From contig CP158972.1 of the NCBI GenBank assembly GCA_040429635.1, positions 2,118,001 to 2,182,000 on the forward strand: a DNA stretch of 64,000 nt. Direction: 5' to 3'. Both the position numbers and the translations under genes were made by a program. Under the pieces are notes generated by a model. The model was given only the letters and a program-made list of their open reading frames with translations, did not search any database and had not been told where the DNA came from. Shown in pieces: positions 13,905 through 52,409 of this stretch (position 1 is its first letter; each line of letters starts with the position of its first letter). This stretch comes from Tamlana crocina. GTDB lineage: Bacteria > Bacteroidota > Bacteroidia > Flavobacteriales > Flavobacteriaceae.

Positions 13905-14321
13905 ATGAAAGTTGAAAAAATTAGCAGTAAAATAGCAAGTTGGTCGTTAATATTCGTTGGTATTGGTCACACAATTACAGATTTAACAAGTACAAAAACG
14001 GAATCACAAAATGATTTCATCATTAAAATGAAAGAATGCCCAATAGAAGTATTAGGAAGTGAAACCAATATATTTTCCTTTCATCAAGGTTTTAGTTTAA
14101 TGATGGGAATATTACTTTTTGGATATGGACTATTAAATATTCTAATTTTGAGAAACAACCAAGCATCAACTATTCCAACTAACATTATAATTCTTAACAA
14201 TATAATTTGTGTAACCTCATTCGTTTTATCAATTAAATATTTTTTTATAGTGCCAATTGTATTCACAGGCATAGCACTTTTAGGATTCGCAATTTCATTA
14301 ATTATTAAACTTAGAAAATGA
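13905..14321 (+). CDS. Four-helix membrane protein, unknown
   Basis: 138 aa with four hydrophobic segments at about residues 12-30, 58-80, 93-110 and 113-134. The segment SLIFVGIGHTITDL near the start and FHQGFSLMMGILLFGYG resemble small uncharacterised membrane proteins that accompany TetR regulators in Bacteroidota (from memory, not verified). Its stop codon overlaps the ATG of the following monooxygenase (ATGA), so they are translated together. Function unknown. Confidence 0.75.
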   Translation: MKVEKISSKIASWSLIFVGIGHTITDLTSTKTESQNDFIIKMKECPIEVLGSETNIFSFHQGFSLMMGILLFGYGLLNILILRNNQASTIPTNIIILNNIICVTSFVLSIKYFFIVPIVFTGIALLGFAISLIIKLRK

Positions 14322-15453
14322 AAATATCAATAATAGGCTCAGGAATTGGAGGATTAACTACTGCCATTGCTTTAAAACAAAAAGGGTTTGAGGTAGAAAT
14401 ATTTGAAGCATCGAAAGAATTTAAAAAGGCAGGTTCTGGTATTAATTTAGCAATTAACGCAATGCAAGTTTTTAAAAGATTAGGTATTTATAATAAGATT
14501 TCAACTTTAGGTAGTTATACAGATTCTATGCTTATAACGGATGAAAAATTAAATACAATTACCAAGGTGAATTTAGAAAACGCAGAACTTGAACATAAGG
14601 TCAAAACATATGCTATTCATAGAGCCACTCTACATAATATTTTGGTCAATGAATTAAATGACATAAAAATACATTTAGGAAAAAAATAAAGTCATTAAAT
14701 CAAGTAAAAGATGAAGTAAATTTCACTTTTGAAGACGACACTTCATACACTACAAATATTTTAATTGGTGCTGATGGGATTCATTCTGTGGTTAGAAAAT
14801 CAATCATTGACAACACTGAAATACGAAAAGCGAAACAAGTATGTTGGAGAGGAATAGTAAAAATGTATATTCCAAAAAAATATCAAGCAGAATTGAACGA
14901 GTTATGGGGAAAAGGAAAACGTTTTGGCTTTGTTAAAATTAATGAAAATGAAGTGTATTGGTACGCACTTGCAAATTATAAAACTGACTATAAAAAGGAA
15001 TTTTATAATGCTCATTTGGAAGAATTATTTTCAGATTTCAGTCCATTAATTAAAAAAATAATATCTACTACAGAGAAAAGGAATGTGATTTTCAATGAAA
15101 TGATGGACTTAAAACCAATTTCAAGTTGGCATTATAAAAATGTATGTTTAATCGGAGATGCATCTCACGCAACTACACCAAATTTAGGGCAAGGTGCTTG
15201 TCAAGCCATTGAAACTGCTTTTGTTATTGCAGAATGTCTATCAACTGAAAACAATACAAAATTAGTATTTCAAAAACTCGAAAAAATAAGAAAAAAGAAA
15301 GTCGAAAAAGTTATAAATACAAGCTGGACAGTTGGTAAAACAGCTCACTTAGATAACAGAGTTGGAATCTTTTTCAGAAATAACATTATGAAACTAATAC
15401 CAAAAATAATCACTGAAAAACAATCGACTTCTATTTATAAGCTGAACTATTGA
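14318..15453 (+). pseudogene. FAD-dependent monooxygenase, split by a frameshift at an A7 run
   Basis: The first frame (14318-14689) gives the FAD-binding Rossmann start MKISIIGSGIGGLTTAIALK and runs to GKK-stop. The rest continues in the -1 frame (IKSLNQVKDEVNFTF...), passing the second FAD motif NILIGADGIHSVVRKS and the GDASHATTPNLGQGAC motif, to the stop at 15453. Joined, it is ~378 aa, the normal length of flavin hydroxylases related to TetX or PHBH. The shift point is gga-AAA-AAA-taa at 14678-14689. A -1 slip on A-AAA-AAA gives precisely the downstream frame. A real indel, a sequencing error or productive slippage are all possible. Confidence 0.85.
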
Positions 15454-15460
15454 AAATAAC

Positions 15461-15472
15461 TACAGAGAACAC
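15461..15472. repeat. Right copy of the 12-bp inverted repeat bounding the cassette
   Basis: TACAGAGAACAC, inverted relative to 13177-13188, begins 8 nt after the monooxygenase stop and abuts the palindromic element at 15474. Confidence 0.6.
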
Positions 15473-15473
15473 C

Positions 15474-15600
15474 GTATATAATTCATTGCTTGGTTCTCTA
15501 CTACTTACGAAAGTTCTCGCGGACTTTCTTGGTCGGTAATTATTTACTAAATAAGTTTCTTAAACCACGCAACAAACCATACACAAGCACGTTGGTTAGC
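15474..15600. repeat. Long imperfect palindrome, structured intergenic element
   Basis: The outer arms are GTATATAATTCATTGC..GGTT at 15474-15495 and the region 15563-15584; 16 of 22 positions are complementary. Inside is a perfect hairpin GAAAGT (15509-15514) / ACTTTC (15523-15528). It ends in CACGTTGG. The stem-with-inner-hairpin shape is reminiscent of recombination sites such as integron attC, or of dispersed flavobacterial repeats, but the canonical attC R-boxes are not convincing. It contains no open frame. Confidence 0.5.
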
Positions 15601-15941: not shown

Positions 15942-17277
15942 GGTAGTATCTCACTAAGTGTGTAAAGTTTAAATATCGAGGGTTAACAGCTCTCGATATT
16001 TTTTTGTTTAATTTTAAATTTTATACACTTATGAAGAAAGAAGATTTTCTAAACGACGACTTTTTAAAACAGTTCAAAACAGGAGACGAACTAACCTCCT
16101 TTCTAAAATCCATCCAAAAGCGGGGCATTGAAAAGATGCTTGAAGGCGAGCTTGATGCGCATCTGGATTATGAAAGGCACCAACAATCCGATAACAGCAA
16201 TACCCGTAACGGTTACGCTTCCAAAAAGATAAAAACGGCATTGGGCGAGACCAATATTAAAGTTCCCAGAGACCGAGAAGCCTCTTTTAACCCCATGCTC
16301 GTCCCTAAACGCACCAACATGGTCGATGGCATAGAAAATGTGATTATCAGCCTTTATGCTAAGGGCATGAGTAATTCCGATATCGAAGAACAGATCCGTG
16401 AAGTCTACGATTTTGATGTATCCACATCCACCATATCCCGCATCACGGATAAAGTTACCAATGATATTGTTGCCTGGCAGAACAGGCCATTGGAGCCCGT
16501 ATATTTAATTACTTGGATGGATGGCATTGTATTTAAGGTTCGGGAGAACTCCAAAGTCATTAACAAAACCATGTACATTGCCGTAGGACTACGTAGAGAC
16601 GGTAAAAAGGAAGTCCTAGGGCTTTGGCTGGGTAAGAATGAATCGGCTGACCTTTTGGATGAGTGTACTAACCGATATGAAAGCCAGAGGCGTTCAGGAT
16701 TTGCTTATCACGGCCACAGATAATCTTAACGGTTTTACCGACACCATTAAAAACGTTTTTCCTGAATCCAAGACCCAAATCTGTGTGGTGCATCAAATTA
16801 GAAATGCTTGTCGCTATGTGGTTTGGAAGGACAAGAAGGAGTTTACAAAGGATATGAAAAGCATCTATGATGCACCTACCAAAAGCGCAGCAAAAGCCGC
16901 TCTGGAGGACTTTGCCCAGAAATGGGAACACAAGTACTCTTACGCTATTAAAAGCTGGAGGGACAACTGGGAAGAACTTACAGCTTTCTATGAATTCCCT
17001 TTAGAAATCAGAAAAATCATTTACACTACGAACCTTATTGAAAACCTTAATGGAAAAATCAGAAAATACACTAAAAACAAACTCTCATTCCCAACAGATG
17101 AAGCTGTTATGAAATCCACTTTTTTAGCCATTAGAGAGGCTACCAAGAAATGGTCGATGCCCATTAGGAACTGGGGCATTATTTTAAACCAGTTTTTGAC
17201 TATATTTGAAAAAAGGGTCCGGCTTTAATTAAGCCAAACCCTCGATTTATAACTTACACACTTTTCGGGATAGTGTC
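15942..17277 (+). mobile_element. IS256-family insertion sequence, 1336 bp, complete ends
   Basis: Terminal inverted repeats: the left end starts GGTAGTATCTCACTAAGTGT and the right end (reverse complement) starts GACACTATCCCGAAAAGTGT; 17 of the first 24 bases match, and the shared cores AAGTGTGTAA and ATCGAGGGTT are exact. Both ends are flanked by TAAATTCA. One transposase gene fills the element, but it carries a one-base insertion. The element interrupts a DUF6326-type gene. A clean duplication and matched flanks point to a single insertion with no later rearrangement. Confidence 0.9.
16031..17228 (+). pseudogene. IS256-family (Transposase_mut) transposase, frameshifted
   Basis: Start MKKEDFLNDDFLKQFKTGDE at 16031. 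The frame holds the N-terminal region and the first catalytic Asp (TWMDGIVFK). At about 16651-16652 one extra C in a CC pair shifts the frame: the sequence reads NESAD then must move +1 to continue [13 protein letters not shown]. Downstream are the second Asp (TATDNLNGF), the conserved [13 protein letters not shown] and the Glu in [15 protein letters not shown]. The repaired protein is ~399 aa, the normal size. As read, the first frame stops after ~231 residues, so the copy is probably inactive unless the extra base is a sequencing error. Confidence 0.88.
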
Positions 17278-49608: not shown

Positions 49609-49736
49609 TTCTTTAATAATAATTGTAAGAAAGAGAGTCGTATTAGAGGGAAAAGTTCTAAATTGGCTTTCGTGGGATAAAATAATTCAAACAAGGACAT
49701 CTTACCTTGTGGTGCAGTAAAATTGAAGAACAAAAA

Positions 49737-51602
49737 ATGAGAATAAAGGAAGACATTCCAATTCTAGGAAAGGTTACGGTAAACTTTCTTGATTTAAGTG
49801 CAAAATTGTATCAACATTATATTGATATTAAAGAAATTGATAGACAAAAGAAGACAGCTCATTTAGGTTTAATTTCTCACGCTTTCAAAAACTCTAATCA
49901 TAGCAGATTTGATTACTTAATATTACAATGTGTAATTTCAGAACTAATCGAAAATACGTTTAAAGGGACAACCAACGCTCAAGGAAACATAACGATAGAT
50001 GGAAATAAACATTTTGGAAATGATATAATTAAAACTTGGATTTTACTTTCTAACTTCGGTCACTGTAAAAATACCATTGGTGATGAAAAAACGCTACTAC
50101 TCGAATGTATTCATAATAAGTCTTTTAAAAGAAAGCTGTTAAATTGTATAAAGGACAAACGGCTAAAAAAATGGTCGCAAGAGGTAATCACTAATTTTGA
50201 TTATGTTAAATTTCATCACATAATCAGTTTTGTTAGAATATATAAAACATTTACTAGACGTATTGATAGACAAGAAGAACTAATTAAAATATATAAACTC
50301 TTACTTTTACCTGAAGATGAAAATGACCAAATAGCAAGTTCAAACCAAATTTCTCGATTAAAAAACATTTATTATATTCTTAGAGATATTTCTATAATTT
50401 CTTTGGATTCTAGAAATAGTTCTCTTCCTTTCAGCTTAGATATTCTCTCTACAGTTTTGTCATTGGATTCGTTCGAAAATAACTATCAAAACAAGAGGAT
50501 TTCAATTATATTAGAACCACTTATCTCTATACTTTATGATAATCTATATCTAAATATAAAGAGCCAAACGCAGCAAAGGTCTTATGAAATAAACGCCTCT
50601 AAGACAATCGATTCAGATGTCGTCAAAAGTTTGAATCAGGCCTTGAGCAATGGCTTGTATAACCCTACATTATGTGATTTACAGCATTTTCTGAGGATTA
50701 AATTAGATAAAAAAAACATGGTTTTTGAAGAAGTTTCGAGTGCGACTAAACAAATTTTAAAAGTAAAAAATGGAATTAATGGTGTTGAAGCATCAATAGA
50801 TCTAAACCCTTTTACAGACAAAAGAGTCATTGACTTTTATTTGGATAAAACTTTTAATATTAAAAATTTTTCTACCTTCATATTTAATATAGGTAACATT
50901 GTTCTAGAACAAATTATTGGTACAGCAACAAATGAATTTAATAAAACCAAAAAAATAAACAAAATAATTGATGACAACTTAAACTCTCTGAACATAACCG
51001 AACAACAAAAAAAAGATTTCAAAAAACCAATAAGGGAACATATTTCTTCTAACATCAAAAAAGCACTTTTGAATAAAAATTTACCAATTTTTAAAAATAT
51101 TCTATGGGCTGCATTACGTTATCATTTAGATAGCAAGTATCATTTTGATATAGACAATCATTCTTTCGGAAAATATGACTATTTTGGAATAAAAATAGGA
51201 AATCTAAATCCGCTTAAGGAAAATTTCGATAATGCAATAAAAACAGAAAAAGATATAGATAGAATACATGAATTAAATCAGCTAAGAAAGTCCGCCTTCA
51301 GAAAATTTGATGGAACTGTTTTAATTTGCTTATCAAGGATAAAAGTTTATAATTATTCTTTACCTCCAAATAAAAGAATTGTAACTGATATTGATGGTGT
51401 TATAATGAAATTTAACGATAAAGAGTTGATACTTGAATTGCACGAAAGTAAAAATACAAATAAGCCAGTAAAGGATGCCCTAAAGGATATTAACTCAAAA
51501 TTGATTAAAACGATTGATACAAAAATTAAAGGTGTAAAGTTACGAGGGATACCTAGTTATGGTGCGAAGATTTATATTCGACATATCTCTAACATTGTAT
51601 AG
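49737..51602 (+). CDS. 621-aa protein of unknown function, possible nuclease-like C-terminus
   Basis: Start MRIKEDIPILGKVTVNFLDL at 49737; an ATG 30 nt upstream adds MWCSKIEEQK and is less likely. No known family is recognised. Near the N-terminus, SNHSRFDYLILQCVISELIE (residues ~53-72) and SNFGHCKNTIGDEKTLL (~105-121) faintly recall the His/Asp segments of HD-domain phosphohydrolases. Near the C-terminus, TDIDGVIMKFNDKELILELH (~550-569) followed by ESK has the D-(16)-E-x-K spacing of PD-(D/E)XK nucleases, with D553, E570 and K572. The gene is much more AT-rich than its neighbours, stands alone and has no signal peptide, suggesting a transferred cargo gene. Confidence 0.85.
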   Translation: MRIKEDIPILGKVTVNFLDLSAKLYQHYIDIKEIDRQKKTAHLGLISHAFKNSNHSRFDYLILQCVISELIENTFKGTTNAQGNITIDGNKHFGNDIIKTWILLSNFGHCKNTIGDEKTLLLECIHNKSFKRKLLNCIKDKRLKKWSQEVITNFDYVKFHHIISFVRIYKTFTRRIDRQEELIKIYKLLLLPEDENDQIASSNQISRLKNIYYILRDISIISLDSRNSSLPFSLDILSTVLSLDSFENNYQNKRISIILEPLISILYDNLYLNIKSQTQQRSYEINASKTIDSDVVKSLNQALSNGLYNPTLCDLQHFLRIKLDKKNMVFEEVSSATKQILKVKNGINGVEASIDLNPFTDKRVIDFYLDKTFNIKNFSTFIFNIGNIVLEQIIGTATNEFNKTKKINKIIDDNLNSLNITEQQKKDFKKPIREHISSNIKKALLNKNLPIFKNILWAALRYHLDSKYHFDIDNHSFGKYDYFGIKIGNLNPLKENFDNAIKTEKDIDRIHELNQLRKSAFRKFDGTVLICLSRIKVYNYSLPPNKRIVTDIDGVIMKFNDKELILELHESKNTNKPVKDALKDINSKLIKTIDTKIKGVKLRGIPSYGAKIYIRHISNIV

Positions 51603-51690
51603 CTTTTAGGCATTAATTAGGTTTGCTTGTATACTTGTTAACACTGTAATTTAGTTCTTATATTCCTTTAATCCTTCATTCAACCACATA

Positions 51691-52125: not shown

Positions 52126-52193
52126 AGGTATTAAGTTTTATTTGTTTTAATTTTTTGTTACACTTTATTTTCAATATTATCGACTGTTGTCAC

Positions 52194-52283
52194 CTTGAGC
52201 CTTTCGACTTCGCTCAAGATAAACTAAGGCCGAAAGGCCTTGTTAAACGAAGGTTATAATTAGGTTTCGACTCCGCTCAACCT
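52194..52283. repeat. Three consecutive intergenic hairpins of the dispersed repeat type
   Basis: CTTGAGC (52194-52200) / GCTCAAG (52212-52218); AAGGCC-GAAA-GGCCTT (52226-52241, perfect, GNRA loop); AGGTT / AACCT (52262-52283). The first and third enclose TTCGACTTCGCTCA and TTCGACTCCGCTCA, variants of the 20389-20416 repeat. They fill the gene-free stretch 52126-52400. Confidence 0.65.
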
Positions 52284-52409
52284 GACATACATTTGTTAAA
52301 TATAGAAAAAAGCCACATTATATTTATCTATTTTATGGTTAATAATTGTAGCTTCTTTCAAATGGCATAAATAATAACGTTGCAATTAGGCTAATTGATT
52401 GAAAATATG

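Follow-up and report, generated by a model that had tools for sequence, protein, structure and literature searches.

A lone gene of Tamlana crocina predicted to join a SAMHD1-like pseudoenzyme to a PD-(D/E)XK-like domain: a possible mobile one-gene defence protein

Introduction

What kind of protein is encoded by a lone gene of 621 codons in a 64-kb stretch of the Tamlana crocina genome (64,000 nucleotides, referred to here as the window), and could it act against phages or mobile elements? A preliminary description of this DNA noted a possible PD-(D/E)XK nuclease motif near the C terminus of the protein and a faint HD-domain resemblance near its N terminus, and suggested a one-gene defence factor that joins a nuclease to a possible phosphohydrolase. 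Antiviral immunity in humans and in bacteria alike makes use of SAMHD1-type enzymes, which break down dNTPs. Our analysis leads us to propose, with a probability of about 0.55, that the gene encodes a single-protein factor against phages or mobile elements, in which a dead SAMHD1-like, ligand-binding part controls a nuclease. The architecture of the protein is well supported as a prediction; the nuclease activity, the role in defence, and the sensing of a ligand together with its direction are what we infer.

Results

The gene occupies positions 49737..51602 of the + strand, as first described, and is present in a single copy in its own genome. Its AT-richness, also noted at the outset, is borne out by a GC content of 0.276 (27.6%) and a GC3 of 0.225 relative to 0.373 (37.3%) for the window as a whole, and the gene is among the lowest-GC stretches of comparable size within it. 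The protein had been placed in no recognised family, and searches of Pfam, PADLOC, NCBIfam, PHROG and PDB sequences likewise gave no significant match, the PADLOC-DB HMM search returning 0 families at E <= 10. That the gene is functional and not a chance ORF follows from purifying selection: dN/dS is ~0.05 between the window gene and a copy from Olleya, with dS near saturation, and 0.107 between the Olleya copy and one from Maribacter. A promoter scan of the gene yielded no excess over shuffled sequences. The ORF list, an AF2 model, Foldseek and VIA together describe a protein made up of a SAMHD1-like pseudo-HD part and a PD-(D/E)XK-like nuclease domain. The AF2 model was built on seven homologues and has a mean pLDDT of 74; a single-sequence model (pLDDT 36) was useless and was set aside.

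Residues 1-460 (49737..51116, + strand; residues ~226-313 modelled with low confidence) appear by Foldseek, VIA and hhalign to have a SAMHD1/HD-phosphohydrolase-like fold. The best 50 Foldseek matches in the PDB were all HD phosphohydrolases or SAMHD1, headed by 2hek (E 6.5e-7), with TM-scores to SAMHD1 of a modest 0.2-0.36 of the query, and VIA superimposed residues 1-494 of the model on residues 115-602 of SAMHD1 over 353 residues with an rmsd of 4.4 and a Z of 12.7, a value near the range reachable by chance for mostly helical models. Because the TM-scores are modest and Z is close to that range, agreement between sequence and structure carries weight here. When the family alignment was compared by hhalign with 19 live HD enzymes, a score of 56 was obtained (Prob 87, E 3.7e-6), whereas none of 150 column-shuffled alignments scored above 25 and the reversed alignment gave 17.5; with the most distant family member (L053) left out, the score was still 46. 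This alignment pairs LLSNFGH of the family with LLHDIGH of the live enzymes. A whole-genome profile search also matched two live HD enzymes (L054 and L057) over the same N-terminal stretch, and the top PDB profile match, below threshold, was the HD protein 2o6i. The profile-profile alignment, judged against its shuffled controls, thus supports the prediction that residues 1-457 have the SAMHD1/HD-phosphohydrolase fold. The faint HD resemblance first seen in SNHSRFDYL and SNFGHCK is real in the sense that these segments are the ones paired in the alignment with H-x-R-F-x-H-S and LLHDIGH of the HD enzymes; an HD-type fold is indeed predicted, but at ~460 residues of SAMHD1 type it is larger than had been thought.

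The proposed phosphohydrolase fared less well, since other residues stand in place of the HD metal ligands throughout the family. In HSRFDY (residues 55-60; 49899..49916, + strand), which aligns with HD motif I, the metal-binding His has become Tyr60, with H55, R57 and Y60 invariant, and in SNFGH (residues 105-109; 50049..50063, + strand), which aligns with HDIGH, the His-Asp pair is Ser-Asn throughout. The position of the final HD Asp varies among members. The His of the GH pair survives as H109 (Tyr in L053), and Ile or Leu takes the place of the catalytic His that comes next; their counterparts in SAMHD1 are H210 and H215, the catalytic histidines of its GH...H segment. With the metal ligands gone in every member, canonical HD hydrolysis is not to be expected. 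Nonetheless, 6 of the 8 positions mapped to the former substrate pocket are invariant among the nine members, versus 27 of 460 residues overall (p 6e-7), a test somewhat biased in that the mapped positions fall in the best-aligned part. Were the pocket a relic, its residues should have drifted, and such invariance in spite of the lost ligands argues that the pocket has been retained, so that residues 1-460 look like a pseudo-dNTPase rather than a phosphohydrolase.

Two other readings of this domain bear on the same residues. The domain might still be enzymatic by way of a re-invented active site, giving a two-enzyme effector of the kind originally suggested. H42, R57, Y60, S105, N106, H109, D116, E117 and K118 are invariant or nearly so across phyla, as a new active site would lead one to expect; against this, three of the four HD metal ligands have been exchanged for residues that seldom coordinate divalent metals, the position of the last Asp is variable, and the equivalent of H215 is Ile or Leu, and we consider this reading improbable. 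Alternatively, the SAMHD1-like part could be a nucleic-acid-binding platform and not a nucleotide sensor, delivering a constitutively active nuclease to foreign DNA or RNA. The fold matches include SAMHD1-DNA and SAMHD1-RNA complexes, the nuclease-like domain also stands alone in Priestia, and the allosteric sites of SAMHD1 are reported to accept oligonucleotides (PMC7854603). In opposition to a platform, the invariant residues cluster in the former substrate pocket, and the residues aligned with the allosteric nucleotide sites of SAMHD1 vary, by inspection of a sequence alignment on which the mapping depends. A platform seems to us unlikely, if a good deal less so than a re-invented enzyme, and we favour the proposal of a dead SAMHD1-like part that would bind a ligand and govern the nuclease.

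The nuclease itself would reside in residues 500-621 (51234..51599, + strand), modelled by AF2 mostly at pLDDT 78-93 up to residue 617 as a PD-(D/E)XK-like domain consisting of a helix (507-520), five strands (527-531, 535-539, 548-552, 554-559 and 563-571), a helix (577-592) and two strands (600-605 and 609-617). An acidic motif where a strand begins, D551-I-D553 (51387..51395, + strand), and E570-x-K572 (51444..51452, + strand) are invariant in the alignment of nine members; T550, D551, D553, E570, K572, G609 and K611 are the same in all nine sequences, down to ~20% identity. E512 in the preceding helix is invariant in all members except L053, and K583-D584 is nearly invariant. Because the hairpin 554-571 turns near 561-562, judging by its register, D553 is placed opposite E570, and the order of elements and motifs is predicted to be that of the alpha-beta-beta-beta-alpha-beta core of PD-(D/E)XK proteins, with D and E-x-K on adjacent strands. 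The D553/E570/K572 motif picked out by eye in the preliminary description has therefore held up, both in its predicted topology and in the E570 and K572 columns, whose conservation that description had singled out for checking and which do not vary across the nine members. Profile searches of the C terminus against PDB, Pfam and PHROGs gave chance-level matches, and hhalign against NERD, YraN, Mrr and DUF4365 gave no signal, YraN-Mrr being the one pair that scored among the positive controls. Since profiles reach no known nuclease, the assignment is made from the motif and the predicted topology, on which residues 500-621 look like a PD-(D/E)XK nuclease and are presumed active. No PD-(D/E)XK entry appeared in the fold-search lists for the whole model, but since the HD part takes up those lists, this does not speak against such a domain.

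The family is rare and patchy and crosses phyla, being found in Bacteroidota, in a deltaproteobacterial MAG and on a Bacillota plasmid. A protein search of a family sample of 397 genomes recovered real copies in three, the window's own included, the other two at 82% and 38% identity, and a class sample contributed one copy at 40%. Plasmid records supplied a full-length copy from Peribacillus (30% identity) and an ORF of 152 aa from Priestia that corresponds to the C-terminal domain only. A pattern scan of genome contigs with the single protein found nothing, whereas one based on the alignment succeeded, with copies in Olleya (83%), Maribacter (82%), Reichenbachiella (47%), Neolewinella (39%), Nonlabens (36%) and the deltaproteobacterial MAG (36%); a profile search added a further copy (G895) and the very distant full-length member L053 of genome G880 (~20%). 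In viral and phage records, pattern scans of IMG/VR and tblastn and blastn of phage records detected no relative. Flavobacteriaceae tblastn matches at E ~0.004-0.4 (L004-L024) were weak and were treated as chance, as were two profile matches, an LptF-like (L055) and a nuclease S1-like protein (L056), on the strength of their ORFs.

Several relatives have defence genes as neighbours, which supports the preliminary description; the association is given here as raw observed neighbours. The Peribacillus gene adjoins a PtuA/PDC-M01A-like (Septu-like) AAA ATPase (E 6e-185), whose PDC-M01B partner carries an HNH-like motif by eye. The G880 gene lies on the same strand as, and downstream of, a type ISP restriction enzyme and a YhcG nuclease, and the C-terminal-only ORF of the Priestia plasmid (L026 9204-10516) adjoins a NucC-like DUF6602 gene in a dnd/pbe region. 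In the deltaproteobacterial MAG an EVE/type II REase-like gene is directly upstream, while the Reichenbachiella gene is flanked by a serine resolvase and a DUF4365-TPR gene. The Maribacter and G895 copies have ordinary neighbours. The suggestion that the gene is a unit by itself agrees with these loci, which hold a single gene without a constant partner.

In the window the gene lies in a strain-variable segment (49692..51672). The sister species G339 matches the window on the left as far as 49692 and on the right from 51672 onward; what it has in between is a different gene, RES-like and 305 aa long (L046 3457-4374; E 1.6e-4 for the RES domain, slightly below the cut-off). The sister species G159 has other genes again at this site. 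The presence of different genes at the same spot in G339 and G159 marks a variable single-gene site, one that seems to swap single genes. Around the window gene, searches for an attC-like site, terminal repeats and complementarity of its own ends found none. In G159, the 3' end of a LysM gene and a downstream hairpin are duplicated around the inserted genes (L045 3861-4305 and 7358-7483), in the manner of an integration scar. A dispersed repeat of ~105 bp at 52184-52289 of the window has many partial copies in its own and sister genomes.

Other copies have features of integron cassettes, namely an attC-like site and complementary ends, which are present at the Olleya (L029) and Nonlabens (L033) loci. 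The Olleya and Maribacter genes share 96.6% DNA identity over a stretch that opens 24 bases upstream of the ATG and ends immediately short of the stop codon, with unrelated flanks, and the start of this homology lies within ~2 bases of the predicted cassette boundary. A 135-bp attC-like site lies on either side of the Olleya gene, whose own ends are exact 10-nt complements (GTTAGGCAAC / GTTGCCTAAC); the Nonlabens gene has the same exact 10-nt complementarity (GTTATGTAGC / GCTACATAAC). A covariance model of the 135-bp site, which had been trained on several of the sites that it found, detected arrays at both loci, and attC-like sites in 183 of 224 family genomes. We propose that the gene moves as a one-gene unit, partly at least as a cassette of integron-like arrays. 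With relatives in defence islands as well as in such cassettes, the product is probably a mobile one-gene defence protein.

The arrays themselves, tandem rows of one-gene cassettes with 135-bp attC-like sites (L029, L033 and L181-L184), were examined as a side finding. In the fetched arrays, complementarity of own ends at at least 6 of 7 bases was found in 44 of 57 consecutive pairs versus 5% of non-consecutive pairs. At the array heads in G159 and G157, a tyrosine recombinase adjoins a divergent small gene; the array recombinases score 188-206 bits with the integron-integrase model TIGR02249, whose cut-off is 265, and a canonical IntI above that cut-off was present in 0 of 13 genomes tested. 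These Flavobacteriaceae arrays are possibly an undescribed integron-like platform. One array carries defence-like cassettes with a KAP/QatA-like ATPase, a GmrSD-like gene and a DUF4365 gene (L183 7323-11085 and 14218-15228). The window has one attC-like site by the covariance model (15464-15599, + strand), and beside it lie a split FAD-monooxygenase-like gene and a split IS256-type transposase, each in two ORFs by eye (14318-15453 and 16004-17228).

A nuclease borne on cassettes might instead serve as a toxin, in DNA repair or in maintenance of the element. By eye, the integron-like arrays also hold ParDE-like pairs and unknown cassettes, and the neighbour of one relative is a serine resolvase, both in keeping with such a role. 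However, no antitoxin-like neighbour is conserved among the relatives, and several of them adjoin specific defence genes, so we give a role outside defence little credence.

Discussion

The interpretation that we prefer, a one-gene defence protein, would work as follows. The SAMHD1-type part (residues 1-460), having lost its metal site and kept its pocket for dNTP, would be a ligand sensor or regulator, and the effector would be the PD-(D/E)XK nuclease of residues 500-621, acting through D553, E570 and K572 and perhaps D551 and E512. A nucleotide or nucleic-acid ligand made during infection would bind the SAMHD1-like part, and the resulting change of shape or assembly would switch the nuclease on. 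We advance only tentatively, and at less than even odds, the most specific form of this proposal: a sensor-effector immune protein in which the pocket of a dead SAMHD1-type dNTPase is the ligand site and directly controls the fused nuclease, and which spreads as a single-gene cassette of Flavobacteriaceae arrays served by a non-IntI tyrosine recombinase. If true, the SAMHD1 fold has been reused as a sensor, giving up catalysis, keeping its pocket and gaining a nuclease, an idea that is directly testable. The side finding, that integron-like arrays lacking a standard IntI are widespread in Flavobacteriaceae, may prove as important as the gene itself.

The protein is new in combination and built of known parts: a SAMHD1-type pseudoenzyme fused to a nuclease was not found described in the sequence libraries or in the part of the literature that was covered. 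With SAMHD1 and the bacterial HD dNTPases EF1143 (2o6i/3irh/4lrl), BT4208 (2q14) and that of Aquifex (2hek), residues 1-457 share a predicted fold and the motif order H-x-R-F followed by LL-x-x-x-GH, with R57 and H109 kept; in contrast to these enzymes, the metal-binding His, the His-Asp pair, the Asp and the equivalent of H215 are lost, a nuclease-like domain is fused at the C terminus, and a single-sequence search with the window protein does not match them. In the Clover system, a nucleotide-controlled HD/SAMHD1-type dGTPase, CloA, defends against phage together with CloB (PMC12265719). CloA has an intact HD motif, is an active dGTPase with an NTase partner, and has no nuclease domain reported, whereas the window protein has S105-N106 and, by eye, no NTase gene among its neighbours. 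A precedent for control by an inactive HD domain is RelA, in which a pseudo-HD acts as the switch for a neighbouring domain (PMC8012599), although the HD family and the effector domain are different and the setting is the stringent response.

With PD-(D/E)XK nucleases such as Mrr, NERD, NucC and DUF4365, the C-terminal domain has in common the D...E-x-K motif, the predicted alpha-beta-alpha-beta order and similar neighbours, but no detectable sequence or profile link. Integron cassettes of Vibrio and of mobile integrons carry anti-phage systems, according to studies cited in PMC12444791, and likewise consist of one gene and an attC-like site with complementary own ends and possible defence cargo. 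The Flavobacteriaceae arrays differ from them in their 135-bp class of site and in a tyrosine recombinase that scores below the IntI cut-off, and the window copy differs from integron cassettes in lying outside any array. For Bacteroidetes proper, IntegronFinder 2.0 reported one complete integron, in Salinibacter (PMC9024848); with this gene located in cassettes, the notion that integrons serve as libraries of anti-phage genes would come to include the Bacteroidota, where few integrons have been reported.
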